Assembly (NCBI GenBank): GCA_903876795.1
Contig: CAIRBK010000024.1
Span: 117,162 to 181,161 of the forward strand
Direction of reading: 5' to 3'
Length of the DNA stretch: 64,000 nt
DNA from: an uncultured Verrucomicrobiota bacterium
GTDB lineage: Bacteria > Verrucomicrobiota > Verrucomicrobiia > Opitutales > Opitutaceae
Under the pieces are notes generated by a model. It did not search any database and was not told where the DNA came from. It saw only the letters and a list, made by a program, of their open reading frames with translations. Position 1 is the stretch's first letter; each line of letters starts with the position of its first letter. The position numbers were made by a program, and so were the translations under genes. Positions 44,513 through 54,967 of the stretch are shown here, in pieces.

Positions 44513-45568
44513 ATGCTTAATCTGCGTATCACTCATTTTGCCCTGATTTTTTCCTTGGTGGCGTCCCTGACCGGCCCGCGTGCAGCCGGTGCGGCCGCAG
44601 AGGGGCGTCCGCGGACGCCCGAGCCTGTGGTGTGGGAGGCGGCGTTGGGCGATTTTTCCGACCCCGTTTACGCCGCCCGCGTCGAGCAATTGATTTCCCG
44701 GTTCGAGGGGGCGCTGGGGCAGAAACTGGCGCCGGGGGAAAAGGGCCGCGTTGGATTGAAGATTTACGCGGATTCAGGTCCGGGGCTGGCTACGCCGCTG
44801 GGGCTTACCAAGGCGGTGATCGCGGCCCTGGAGCGTCGCGGGTATGCCAAGGGGAAGATTTTCCTCGTCGGCCTGAACCAGCAGCGGCTGCGGTTCACCG
44901 GTTATCTGCCGTCGTTGGTCACGGGCAAATCGGCTTTCGACGGGCACCCGGTCTATGTGTTGGAGTCGGGTCGCTATTTCGATCCGGTTTGGTTTTACGA
45001 CAGTCCGTTGCCCTCGCGATTCGATCCCATTTTGGTGCAAAAAAGCGTCGAGGCGTTCGACGCCGAGACCTCGCTGGAGGACGACCGCAAGAGTTTCCTG
45101 GCGACGCCGTTGTTTGTGGACGCGGATTTTTGGATCAACCTGCCCGTTTACACCGACCATCCCGTGCTCGGGGTGAACGGCGCGCTGGTCAACGCCACGT
45201 TGTGGAACGCGTCCAACACGGCGCGATTTTTTCGCAGTCCGGCCAGCGCGCCGGCGGCGGTGGCCGAGATGAGTGCCATCCCAGAGTTGCGCGGCACCTG
45301 GATGTTCACCCTGGCGAGTTTGGAGCGTTATCAGTTCATCGGCGGGCCTTGGTTCAACTCGCTGTATACGATCTCGGAGCCGCGTTTGTGGCTGAGCGCG
45401 GATCCGGTGTTGCTCGATTCTCTCATGCTGGAGCGTATCAACCGCTATCGACTCCGGAACGGGTTTAATGCCGTGCCGGACGAGATTCGCACCTTGGAAT
45501 TCGCCTCGATCCTCGGAGTGGGGTCGCGAAAGGCGGAGCAAGCCCGGTTCGTCAAGGTCGGCGACTGA
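44513..45568 (+). CDS. DUF362-like secreted protein
   Basis: Signal peptide; RVGLKIYADSGPGLATPLGLTKAVIAALERRGYAKGKIFLVG, FWINLPVYTDHPVLGVNGALVNATL resembles DUF362. Confidence 0.65.
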   Translation: MLNLRITHFALIFSLVASLTGPRAAGAAAEGRPRTPEPVVWEAALGDFSDPVYAARVEQLISRFEGALGQKLAPGEKGRVGLKIYADSGPGLATPLGLTKAVIAALERRGYAKGKIFLVGLNQQRLRFTGYLPSLVTGKSAFDGHPVYVLESGRYFDPVWFYDSPLPSRFDPILVQKSVEAFDAETSLEDDRKSFLATPLFVDADFWINLPVYTDHPVLGVNGALVNATLWNASNTARFFRSPASAPAAVAEMSAIPELRGTWMFTLASLERYQFIGGPWFNSLYTISEPRLWLSADPVLLDSLMLERINRYRLRNGFNAVPDEIRTLEFASILGVGSRKAEQARFVKVGD

Positions 45569-45647: not shown

Positions 45648-46022
45648 ATGTCCGCCGCGTATCTGCCGCTTCTTATTCAATTAATCCTCGCCGCCGGCCT
45701 GGCCGTGGTGATCGTCGGCGTGAGCCACCTGCTCGGCGAGCGCCGCAAGAAAAAGACGGCCATCACCGACACGGCCTACGAGTGCGGCGTGAAGGCCGAC
45801 GGTCTCGTGCATACGCGGTTTTCGGTGAAGTTTTACGTCACCGCCATGCTCTTCATCCTCTTTGATATCGAGGTGGTTTTCCTGATTCCGTGGGCTTTCA
45901 TCTACCGCGATTTCCTCGCCAACAATCTTTCCATTCTCGGTCCCATTCTCTTTTTCCTCGGCGTGCTTGTTCTCGGTCTTTTCTACGAGGTCAAAAAGGG
46001 CGCGCTCGAGTGGGAGAAGTGA
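45648..46022 (+). CDS. nuoA: NADH-quinone oxidoreductase subunit A (NuoA/NdhC)
   Basis: YECGVKADGLVHTRFSVKFYVTAMLFILFDIEVVFLIPWAF is diagnostic for subunit A. Confidence 0.95.
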   Translation: MSAAYLPLLIQLILAAGLAVVIVGVSHLLGERRKKKTAITDTAYECGVKADGLVHTRFSVKFYVTAMLFILFDIEVVFLIPWAFIYRDFLANNLSILGPILFFLGVLVLGLFYEVKKGALEWEK

Positions 46023-46058: not shown

Positions 46059-47417
46059 GTGAAACTCGACAAGATCATCGCCCGAGGACGGATCGTTGAT
46101 CTGCACAGCACCGACATGCGCGGGGCGCTCGGCGAGCTCCTCGCGGTTTCGGCCAGCAAGTTCCCCGACCTGAAGCAGGACGCCCTCTTGCGCGGCTTGA
46201 TGCAGCGCGAGAGCACGATGACCACCTATCTGGGCGCCGGGGTCGCCCTGCCCCATGTGCGCGTGAAGATGGGGCGACGCTACATCCTTGCGATCGGACG
46301 CAGCCGCGAGGGTATCCGCAACGAAAACACGGTCGGCGAGGAAAAGATACACCTTATCTTCATGTTGCTGGCCGACGAGAAGGCCCGCGACTACCTGCAG
46401 TTGCTCGCTTCGATCGCCCGGCTGTTGAAGGACGAGGATCTGGTGCGGGAGCTGCGTCAGGCCGCGACCACCGACGACGTGTTCGACCGGCTGCTGGCCG
46501 GGTTCGGCGGCATCATCGCGAAGCCGGTCCAGGCTCAGCAAAACCGTATCAACCGCCTGATGATCCGCGAGGCCGACCGCGTGGCCAAAGGAGCGGGCTG
46601 CGGCGCCATCATGGTCTTCGGCGACGCGTTTGTCGGAGGCATCGAGCCGGGCGCCTGGTTTCCCAAGAGCAAAACCATCCTGGTGACGCGCAACCTGGTC
46701 GAGATGGAGGAGGGCGACGGCAATTTTGCGGGCGTCATCCAGGTGCGCTCCTACTCGCAGCGCCGGCTGGCGCAGCTGCGCAGCGCGATGTTTGTGGCGC
46801 TTACACGCGGGATGATCTCGTTCAGCGACCGGGTGTGCTGCGTGGGTGGCATCGCCGGCAGCAACCAGTTCGACACGGTCGTGATCGTGGATGTGGAGCG
46901 GGAGTTTCAGACGCTGCTGACCGGCCATGCCGATCTGATGCCGGACGATGTGAAGCCCGAGGTGCTCGAGCGCGTGATCGCGATCGCGACCGAGCTCGCG
47001 GTCGAGGGGCGCGAGGGCAAGCCCGTCGGTTGTCTTTTCGTGGTTGGCGACGCCTCCCGGGTCGAGCGACTGGTCAAGCCGCTCGTCCTAAACCCTTTTT
47101 ACGGTTACAAAGAAGAGGATCGCAACATCCTCAGCCCTTTCATGGACGAGACGGTCAAGGAGTTCTCCTCCATCGATGGAGCGTTCATCATCCGGGGCGA
47201 TGGCGTGGTTTCCTCGGCAGGCAGCCTGATCCAGGCGGCCGATGTCGATCATACGCTGCCGAGCGGTTTGGGCAGCCGTCATGCGGCCGCAGCGGCGATT
47301 TCGGTGGCCACGGAATGCATCTCGATCGTCGTTTCGTCGAGCACGGGACAAGTGACGCTGTTCCGGCGCGGAGTGATGTTGCCGCTGACCGAACGGAAAC
47401 TCAGCGCCGGAGGCTGA
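46059..47417 (+). CDS. PTS EIIA (PtsN-like) domain / middle domain / DisA_N diadenylate cyclase domain fusion protein
   Basis: EIIA phospho-His motif TYLGAGVALPHVR; C-terminal DAC motifs SIDGAFIIRGDGVVSSAGSLIQA and LPSGLGSRHAAAAAISVATECISIVVSSSTGQVTLFRRG; GTG start. Confidence 0.85.
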   Translation: MKLDKIIARGRIVDLHSTDMRGALGELLAVSASKFPDLKQDALLRGLMQRESTMTTYLGAGVALPHVRVKMGRRYILAIGRSREGIRNENTVGEEKIHLIFMLLADEKARDYLQLLASIARLLKDEDLVRELRQAATTDDVFDRLLAGFGGIIAKPVQAQQNRINRLMIREADRVAKGAGCGAIMVFGDAFVGGIEPGAWFPKSKTILVTRNLVEMEEGDGNFAGVIQVRSYSQRRLAQLRSAMFVALTRGMISFSDRVCCVGGIAGSNQFDTVVIVDVEREFQTLLTGHADLMPDDVKPEVLERVIAIATELAVEGREGKPVGCLFVVGDASRVERLVKPLVLNPFYGYKEEDRNILSPFMDETVKEFSSIDGAFIIRGDGVVSSAGSLIQAADVDHTLPSGLGSRHAAAAAISVATECISIVVSSSTGQVTLFRRGVMLPLTERKLSAGG

Positions 47418-47678: not shown

Positions 47679-47704
47679 GCATCCCACGGGGATATAAAAT
47701 CAAA

Positions 47705-47734
47705 AAACCGGTCTTTTGATAGACCGGTTTTTTT
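47705..47734 (+). terminator. Rho-independent terminator of rpmG
   Basis: AAACCGGTCT-TTTGAT-AGACCGGTTTTTTT perfect 10-bp stem plus T tract. Confidence 0.92.
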
Positions 47735-51596: not shown

Positions 51597-52601
51597 TCAG
51601 GTCGAAAACGGAGGGGAGCTTCGTTCGACGGGCCTGATGACCCGAGGTTTTTCCTCGGCCTGCTGCTCCATGAAGCGGATGAGGCGGTCGTTGAACGTTT
51701 TGGCGGGATCGTGGCCGATTTTTTTCAAGGCCTGTACGAGTGCGGCCACCTCGACCAAGCGGGCGATGTCCCGGCCGGGCCGCACATAGAGCTCCACATG
51801 GGCAACGCTCATGCCGAGGATCTCGTAGCGGTTTTCCTCGAGTCCGGTGCGTTCCTCGATGGCTTCCGGGGTCCACTCCCGAAGGGAGACGACCATGTCG
51901 ATGCGTTGCTCCACGCGGACGCTCTTCACGCCGAACATTTCGGCGATGTTGATGATGCCGATGCCGCGGCACTCCATGTAGCCGCGGTTGAGGGGTCGGC
52001 TGGAGGCGATCAGGTCGCGCTCGTCGAGCAGTTTGATCACGGTGAGGTCGTCGGCGACCAGGGAGTGGCCGCGCTCGATAAGGGCGAGGGCGCACTCGCT
52101 TTTGCCCACCCCGGAATCGCCGCGAAGCATCACGCCGACGCCTTTGACGTCGAGGGTGGTGGCGTGCTCGGTGCAGGACGGAGCGAACTCGTTGTCGATG
52201 CAGAGGGTCGCCAGGTTTACCCAGTGCATGGTGATCATCGGTGTGCGGAAGATCGGCAGTTTGCGCTCCCGGGATATCTGCTCCATCGCCGCAGTGGGGT
52301 GGAAATTGCGAGTGAGTACGAGGCAGGGGACGTTGCGGTCCACCATTTCATTGATGATGAGGATCTGCGTCTCGTGGGAGAGCGTCTTGAAATAAGTCAT
52401 CTCGGCGGCCCCGAGGACCTGGATGCGTTTGTTGGCGAAATATTTGAAGAAGCCCGTGAGGGCCAGCGCGGGGCGGTTGATGGAGCCCTCTTTGATGAGG
52501 CGGTGGACGCCGTCGGCGCCGGAGATCAACTCCAGCTTGAGTTTCTCGCGGTAGGTTTCCTCAAAGTGGGCGACGGTGATTCCGTGAATGGCTTTTGGCA
52601 T
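51597..52601 (-). CDS. hprK: HPr kinase/phosphorylase
   Basis: GVGVMLRGDSGVGKSECALALIERGHSLVADDLTVI; MECRGIGIINIAEMFG. Confidence 0.95.
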   Translation of the reverse strand: MPKAIHGITVAHFEETYREKLKLELISGADGVHRLIKEGSINRPALALTGFFKYFANKRIQVLGAAEMTYFKTLSHETQILIINEMVDRNVPCLVLTRNFHPTAAMEQISRERKLPIFRTPMITMHWVNLATLCIDNEFAPSCTEHATTLDVKGVGVMLRGDSGVGKSECALALIERGHSLVADDLTVIKLLDERDLIASSRPLNRGYMECRGIGIINIAEMFGVKSVRVEQRIDMVVSLREWTPEAIEERTGLEENRYEILGMSVAHVELYVRPGRDIARLVEVAALVQALKKIGHDPAKTFNDRLIRFMEQQAEEKPRVIRPVERSSPPFST

Positions 52602-52660
52602 GGGAGCGAAGGGAGGAAAGAGTTCGGTCCGGCCTGCGGAGGGCTGGAGGAATGCGCTGG

Positions 52661-53433
<773 letters not shown>

Positions 53434-53437
<4 letters not shown>

Positions 53438-54012
53438 TTGGCTTGGGCCGGCAGCGGTGAGGGGGGCTGCGCGGGTTTGTTTTTGTCGAAGCCGAGGTCT
53501 TTGAGGGGCGGGAAGGTGCCGCGGATGTTGTCGCCGAAGATGCGTCGTTCGCCGCGCAGCAGCACGATGCGGTCGCCGGTGGCGACGTAGCCGCCGGAGG
53601 CGTCGGTCACCACGGGTTTTTCGGTGAGGACCAGCCGGTCCTCGCCGGGGAATACCTCGGCGCGACCGCAGGTGACCTCGCGGTCTCCCTGGATGATGCG
53701 GACGTTGCCCGTGGCCACGAGGCTCTTGAATTTTTCCAAGGGGCCGAGGGTCTCTTTTTTGTCACCCTTGGTGTCGAGGCGGATGGCGGTCACTTCGAGC
53801 TTGTCGCAGGTGATGCGGAGGTTGTTGCCCGTGACGACGACGTTCTTTTGGAAGACGGAGCGGGTCTCGGTGTCGGTGCTCCACATCTCCATCTGGGTGC
53901 TTTCGATGACGGTGGGCACGAGCGCGGCGGGCCGGGTATCGGCCGCTCGGGAGAAGGGTGCCGCCGCCAATGCGCACAGCAGAGCCGAAAGAGGGAGAAG
54001 GGAGCGGTTCAT
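53434..54012 (-). CDS. LptA/OstA-like periplasmic protein
   Basis: Signal peptide; EMWSTDTETRSVFQKNVVVTGNNLRITCDKLEV..VATGNVRIIQGDREVTCGRAEVFPGEDRLVLTEKPVV. Confidence 0.85.
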
Positions 54013-54458
54013 TTGATGAGGTCTTTAAGCTCGTCCTGGAAAGTGACGCGGGCGTTCTTGCCGATCAAAACTCTTTTCTCGGGGTGGATGTAGGACCACT
54101 GCTCGCCGGTGACCTCCAAGTCGATGCGGATGAGGCGCACCTTGCCGGTGCCGCTGGCGATTTGTTTGTCGGTTTGGAAGCTGGCTTCGGGGGCGATGAG
54201 CAAGGTGTCGAAGGCGCCGGTGCCGTCTTTGGTGAACAGGGTGAACTGCATGTCGGAAACATCGACCCGCGTGGGGGAGACGAAGATGGCCTCGGTGGCG
54301 CGCAGGAAGGCGGATCTTTTGCCTTCTTTGTCAAAGGCGGGCAGGCGGAAATCCTTGATGGGGGCGCTGGGTTTGACCCTGGGCGCGGACGGCTCGGCGG
54401 CGAAGGCCGGCGCGGCGATGCCCAGCAAAACCAGGATGATGTGGACGGGAAGGTTCAC
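54009..54458 (-). CDS. LptC-like protein
   Basis: Signal peptide; beta-rich; operon position between lptA and kdsC. Confidence 0.6.
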   Translation of the reverse strand: MNLPVHIILVLLGIAAPAFAAEPSAPRVKPSAPIKDFRLPAFDKEGKRSAFLRATEAIFVSPTRVDVSDMQFTLFTKDGTGAFDTLLIAPEASFQTDKQIASGTGKVRLIRIDLEVTGEQWSYIHPEKRVLIGKNARVTFQDELKDLIK

Positions 54459-54967
54459 TCGTGTGGGCTCTGACCGCGCGCCGCGAGGATATGTTCACAC
54501 ACTTCGCGCACGGCGCCTTGGCCGGCGCGCCGACGGGTGACGTAGTCGGCGGCGGCGAAGGTCGCGGGCATGGCGTCGGGCACGCTCACGCCGATGCCGG
54601 CCCAGCGAATGGCGGCGGTGTCGATGTGGTCGTCGCCCATGTAAACGATCTGGTCGGCGGCCAGGTTGAGCGTGGCGGCGAGTTCCTTGAGGGCGGTGAT
54701 CTTGTCGGTGCGGCCCTGGACCACATGGGGGATTTTAAGTTCTTCGGCCCGCAGGGAGGTGGCACCCGAGGCGCGACCGCTGATCCAGGCGGTGACGACC
54801 CCGTGTTTGGCAAGTTGCACGAGACCCATGCCATCAATGACGGAGAAGCGTTTGCTTTCGGTGCCGTCGGAGTGGATCTCGATGGTGCCGTCGGTGAGGA
54901 CGCCGTCGACGTCCATTGCAAAGAGTCGGATTGCGGCCCAGCGGGCGGGGGCGATGAGGGCTTTCAT
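54455..54967 (-). CDS. kdsC: KdsC-type 3-deoxy-D-manno-octulosonate-8-phosphate phosphatase (HAD)
   Basis: RLFAMDVDGVLTDGTIEIHSDGTESKRFSVIDGMGL..VYMGDDHIDTAAIRWAGIGVSVPDA. Confidence 0.9.
   Translation of the reverse strand: MKALIAPARWAAIRLFAMDVDGVLTDGTIEIHSDGTESKRFSVIDGMGLVQLAKHGVVTAWISGRASGATSLRAEELKIPHVVQGRTDKITALKELAATLNLAADQIVYMGDDHIDTAAIRWAGIGVSVPDAMPATFAAADYVTRRRAGQGAVREVCEHILAARGQSPHE

Follow-up and report, generated by a model that had tools for sequence, protein, structure and literature searches.

A PtsN-like EIIA domain fused to a DacZ-type diadenylate cyclase, the probable sole c-di-AMP synthase of an Opitutaceae bacterium and a candidate target of PTS phosphorylation

After analyzing a window of 64,000 nucleotides from an uncultured Opitutaceae bacterium together with the genome that carries it, we found that the only diadenylate cyclase (DAC) of this organism is fused to a PtsN-like EIIA domain. 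Sequence analysis established the domains of the protein, its intact catalytic and phospho-acceptor sites, the genes of the PTS relay and its status as the sole DAC. Based on these data, our favored explanation, held with moderate confidence, is that PTS phosphorylation of a conserved histidine, His66, tunes the production of c-di-AMP by this single enzyme. The features on which the analysis draws are as follows.

45648..46022, + strand: nuoA, complex I subunit A (PF00507, 1.2e-29), 36 bp 5′ of the cyclase gene and on the same strand
46059..47417, + strand: eiia-dacZ (DacD-class) gene, encoding a 452-aa EIIA-DacZ_P-DAC protein, GTG start
46059..46502, + strand: EIIA(Ntr)-type domain, approximately residues 1-148 (PF00359, 6e-22), PtsN fold, His66 codon at 46254-46256
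46542..46913, + strand: DacZ_P domain (PK_C-like), residues 162-285 (PF21755, 4.8e-22), with a pyruvate kinase match of the family profile
46998..47375, + strand: DAC catalytic domain, residues 314-439 (PF02457, 1.1e-20), with invariant motifs and DisA/CdaA fold matches
47702..47733, no strand assigned: terminator-like inverted repeat 3′ of eiia-dacZ, 13-pair stem and T tail, a consensus match only
51597..52601, − strand: hprK, HPr(Ser) kinase/phosphorylase (TIGR00679, 6.8e-98, and PF07475, both over cut-off), an input of the PTS relay

The start point of the window's GTG is occupied by a start codon in 78 of 80 relatives (72 ATG and 6 GTG). The sequence-only reading of this DNA had placed a type-2 EIIA domain with the motif GVALPHVR at the N-terminus and a DAC domain with DGA and GxRH motifs at the C-terminus, and Pfam searches bore out both. 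PTS_EIIA_2 was matched at residues 40-145 (78.6 bits against a cut-off of 27) with His66 intact within GVALPHVR, and the DAC domain was matched at 73.8 bits, also against a cut-off of 27, with its catalytic residues present (DGA at 373-375; GLGSRH at 403-408, containing GxRH at 405-408). The proposed affinity to DacZ enzymes with a PK_C-like middle domain was likewise confirmed by the match to DacZ_P (78.4 bits, over cut-off), by a partial match to the archaeal DacZ profile NF041371 and, when the family profile was compared with the PDB, by the alignment of residues 164-267 with a pyruvate kinase chain (3eoe_A, E 0.0056). The PK_C profile itself, which the same reading had named for a search, gave only a marginal match (10.9 bits against a cut-off of 28, E 0.5).

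Structure prediction, another check proposed at the outset, returned one EIIA-Ntr-like domain and one DAC fold. The AlphaFold2 model was built with 75 relatives and had a mean pLDDT of 72 and a pTM of 0.44, values at which the single domains are usable and their mutual placement is unreliable; an earlier model from 19 similar sequences (pLDDT 55) was set aside. In Foldseek searches of the PDB, the top matches were PtsN/EIIA-Ntr structures (TM by target 0.82-0.86, rmsd 2.0-2.3), followed by DisA and CdaA for the DAC fold. Comparison of the family profile with the PDB similarly retrieved PtsN structures (1e-16) and diadenylate cyclases (3e-12).

The fusion is very probably an active cyclase. D373, G374, G405, R407, H408, S426 and S428 were invariant in 50 of 50 diverse homologues. 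A pseudo-enzyme with an inactive DAC domain might be suspected from the motif of the window protein, which reads RHA rather than RHR, and from the DAC scores in the order, which lie below those of CdaA. However, DGA and GxRH never vary, a haloarchaeal DacZ (L138) also departs from RHR with RHH at this position, and H. volcanii DacZ has cyclase activity that depends on Mn (PMC6741144). Additionally, a dead enzyme would have to be the sole DAC in 56 of the 59 genomes of the order that carry a DacZ_P protein. We regard an inactive domain as scarcely credible.

The genome (3.57 Mb in 103 contigs, 98% complete, with gene content taken from family searches) encodes a single DAC, the fusion, and two type-2 EIIA proteins, namely the fusion and a stand-alone PtsN (L002). 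EI and HPr phosphorylate EIIA histidines, and one copy of each is encoded here; catalytic histidine motifs are present in both, and HPr carries the motifs GIHARPAA and NGKS. No PTS permease was found in the genome in a family search with PF02378 for the EIIC component, and neither EIIB nor EIIC genes lie near eiia-dacZ. With EIIC judged by PF02378 only, the PTS of this genome looks like a regulatory system with few outputs, of which the fusion cyclase would be one. PF00359 is also the family of the fructose and mannitol EIIA domains, and the domain could in principle be an ordinary permease EIIA for sugar transport that carries the cyclase as a passenger. The missing PF02378-type EIIC, the absence of EIIB and EIIC genes nearby and the best structural and PDB matches, which are to PtsN and not to transport EIIAs, make this highly improbable. 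A 7TMR-HDED (PgpH-type) phosphodiesterase is also encoded in the genome. The ydaO c-di-AMP riboswitch (RF00379), sought as a downstream target, had no match in the genome, and an Rfam search gave no match within the window.

His66 is likely to be phosphorylated. The residue is kept in 81 of 81 close proteins and in 42 of 46 diverse EIIA-bearing homologues (91%), compared with a mean identity to the window protein of 54% across the EIIA domain in the same 46. For His66 and the pocket residues R50, E51, P65 and R68, conservation in the diverse homologues is 91-98%, which greatly exceeds the mean of the domain. Many EIIA domains contain a second histidine; Y112 occupies its position in the window protein, and the genome's own PtsN also has a tyrosine there.

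Four proteins lack His66. Three of them (L041, L051 and L055) belong to one genus (g27) and the other is L049, and they stand at two separate positions in the tree, which suggests about two independent losses. EIIA is degenerate in the genus of L041, whose match to the domain (23.9 bits) falls under the Pfam cut-off. The four proteins retain all DAC motifs and would be natural PTS-blind variants. We considered that the loss of His66 might track the loss of the PTS, but all four genomes still have EI and HPr, which ruled this out. Because His66 was lost while EI, HPr and the DAC motifs persisted, phospho-control would not be needed in every lineage.

These data bear on two further explanations. 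The cyclase may be active with EIIA serving mainly as a docking module, such that phosphorylation alters the binding of partners (K+ transporters, HPr or PtsN targets) instead of cyclase activity, and c-di-AMP synthesis is thereby localized. PtsN does work mostly by protein binding, for example to YcgO (PMC11808508), and His66 can be lost with the rest of the protein retained. Nevertheless, the conservation of His66 and its pocket so far above the domain mean, and the placement of EIIA beside the cyclase in cis, argue against docking as the main function, and we consider it an unlikely alternative. Alternatively, the cyclase may be constitutive and EIIA vestigial, with any signal entering through DacZ_P, for example as a glycolytic metabolite. 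The degenerate EIIA of one genus fits this view, as do DacZ_P-DAC proteins without EIIA in the phylum (L037 and L042, and less surely L038 and L045, which lie at contig ends) and the binding of fructose-1,6-bisphosphate by the PK_C fold of pyruvate kinase (PMC6741144). However, all other lineages show strong conservation of the EIIA active site and the losses are limited to two lineages, so a vestigial EIIA appears quite improbable.

Returning to the explanation that we favor, control through phosphorylated His66, we propose a putative mechanism. As the organism's only diadenylate cyclase, of the DacZ type and DacD class, the fusion would dimerize to convert ATP into c-di-AMP, and its PtsN-like EIIA domain would serve as the input module. 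Phosphate would pass from PEP to EI, then to HPr and finally to His66, and HprK could damp this relay by converting HPr to HPr(Ser-P). Depending on whether His66 carries phosphate, the rate of the cyclase would change via the DacZ_P domain, the dimer interface or both, a form of control that we consider reasonably likely. The c-di-AMP produced, which would be removed by the PgpH-type phosphodiesterase, would signal the carbon and energy state of the cell, with K+ and osmotic control as the probable target. Elsewhere, K+ and osmotic balance are under c-di-AMP control (PMC7900238), PtsN acts on K+ transport (PMC11808508, PMC9239096, PMC3665714), and it is the unphosphorylated PtsN that acts on the K+/H+ antiporter YcgO (PMC11808508). 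Because PtsN binds its targets unphosphorylated, we lean slightly toward the unphosphorylated form as the one that would restrain the enzyme. With the fusion as the single cyclase of this bacterium and of almost its whole order, these bacteria probably set c-di-AMP by carbon and energy status.

The distribution of the fusion suggests how it came to be the sole cyclase. A DAC was found in 372 of 388 genomes of the phylum, nearly always in one copy, and DacZ_P in 67, all 67 of which have EI and HPr. Within the window's order, 59 of 63 sampled genomes have a DacZ_P protein and 56 of these 59 have no other DAC; in G224 and G311 a second DAC scores more strongly than the fusion, and in G173 a second DacZ_P-DAC protein of 300 aa (L042) accompanies it. 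This second copy is the only order locus examined that lacks the EIIA domain. The four order genomes without DacZ_P (G102, G299, G385 and G146) have no DAC at all, and three of them are also without the PgpH-type phosphodiesterase. Beyond the order, the typical DAC gives a much higher score, the three loci tested were all CdaA over cut-off, and the eight carriers of DacZ_P have two DACs each. In the tree, the fusions of this order fall on one branch (support 90/99); the phylogenetic tests are not independent of shared descent. The simplest reading of these patterns is that CdaA gave way to the fusion at the root of the order.

The 7TMR-HDED phosphodiesterase tends to accompany the fusion. Among 48 chosen genomes, it was present in 34 of 38 carriers compared with 1 of 10 non-carriers (nominal Fisher p 4e-6), and within the order in 32 of 34 carriers compared with 1 of 4 non-carriers. 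The sample was picked by hand from related genomes, and the six non-carriers that lie outside the order possess a different DAC but no 7TMR-HDED; therefore, the co-occurrence is support and not proof.

The gene neighborhood is conserved on the upstream side. The 36-bp gap between nuoA and the cyclase gene contains no terminator-like site, and nuoA lies upstream of the cyclase in all 77 Opitutaceae-like loci that could be tested. The pair also recurs across most of the remaining families in the order, including those in which cyclase identity drops to 37-42%; upstream of the cyclases L049 and L050, no nuoA match was found. No other nuo gene adjoins nuoA in the stretch examined, so that it stands alone at the locus. 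Upstream of nuoA, a 351-aa ORF (44513-45568, + strand) is conserved in Opitutaceae-like genomes and gave no Pfam or NCBIfam match. On the − strand, hprK follows a kdsC-lptC-lptA-lptB-like block (51597-54967 in all), whose names, except for that of the ABC ATPase, were assigned by eye. The corresponding lpt block of Proteobacteria includes ptsN. An anti-phage context was rejected, as PADLOC gave no match and the neighbors are housekeeping genes.

On a larger scale, we would give roughly even chances to the view that the whole order swapped the usual membrane CdaA for a soluble cyclase under the direct control of a transport-free PTS, in which PEP/HprK status sets c-di-AMP in cis, and that two lineages have since lost the phospho-switch. 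If this is true, PtsN and c-di-AMP, which both regulate K+ homeostasis elsewhere, have been merged in one polypeptide (PMC11808508, PMC3665714, PMC9239096, PMC7900238). The control of diadenylate cyclases is largely unknown, and PMC6741144 went only as far as suggesting that the N-terminal PK_C-like fold of DacZ is regulatory. The input domain of the fusion belongs to a well-understood type of phospho-acceptor whose donor chain is known, which makes the signal that reaches a c-di-AMP enzyme directly testable with EI, HPr and PEP. The sole copy, the conserved His66 and the natural lineages without it provide a ready-made comparison.

The DacD class of cyclases presumably carries a PTS IIA domain, and Galperin is said to have defined, in 2023, the sensor domains of the DacZ superfamily. 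A tree legend in PMC6741144 (2019) lists a class DacD, a name that follows Corrigan and Gruendling 2013, with five representatives, all Verrucomicrobiota and mostly Opitutia: Lacunisphaera limnophila, Puniceicoccaceae, Coraliomargarita, Opitutae bacterium and Verrucomicrobia bacterium. In the available part of that paper, DacD is named in the tree without a stated domain architecture or assay. Lacunisphaera and Coraliomargarita are taxonomically Opitutia, and the relatives of the window protein belong to the same Opitutaceae/Opitutia lineage. Nearly all genomes of the window's order have the fusion as their only DAC, so DacD is very likely, in practice, the EIIA-DacZ_P-DAC fusion; this assignment draws on lineage and sole-DAC status. 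The sequence-only reading had described the protein as unlike the characterized cyclase classes, which is correct for the biochemically studied enzymes; however, DacD already appears in PMC6741144 and DacZ_P is already in Pfam. The implied novelty was thus overstated; the class is known but apparently unassayed. What this analysis adds is the evidence that points to a replacement of CdaA, the setting within a PTS, the lineages that lost His66 and the conserved nuoA-dacD pair.

Compared with known systems, the window protein shares domains with several families. It groups with the diadenylate cyclases by the PF02457 match with DGA and GxRH, and with the EIIA domains by the PF00359 match, the PtsN fold and the (L/I)PH histidine. 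NCBIfam-level matches fell below the cut-offs for archaeal DacZ (NF041371, 118 bits against 430, 3.9e-34), for PtsN (TIGR01419, 48.5 against 138.7, denoting a PtsN-like domain and not a PtsN protein) and for CdaA (TIGR00159, 34.5 against 188.8, in the DAC region only); therefore, domains are shared, but the protein is no equivalog of DacZ, PtsN or CdaA. The DisA equivalog was also matched below cut-off and in the DAC part only (PRK13482, 21.5 bits against 201). A search of plasmids gave no site that spans most of the protein, and the matches listed were to separate DacZ or EIIA proteins.

The euryarchaeal DacZ/CdaZ enzymes (H. volcanii DacZ and M. jannaschii CdaZ) resemble the window protein in placing the same kind of C-terminal DAC domain behind a PK_C-like domain and in following GxRH with a residue other than R. 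In contrast, they are approximately 270 aa long and have no EIIA domain, and the DacZ_P profile found no match in archaeal control genomes. EIIA-Ntr/PtsN shares the fold, the phospho-histidine motif, the likely role of terminal acceptor in the EI-HPr relay and the setting of a genome without PF02378-type EIIC, whereas the window protein is fused to an enzyme and exists alongside a separate PtsN. Like the fusion, CdaA is the sole housekeeping DAC, in its case in the majority of the phylum's other genomes, as indicated by the score range and by the three loci that pass the CdaA cut-off. However, CdaA is membrane-bound, whereas the fusion has no membrane helices and takes the place of CdaA throughout the order.
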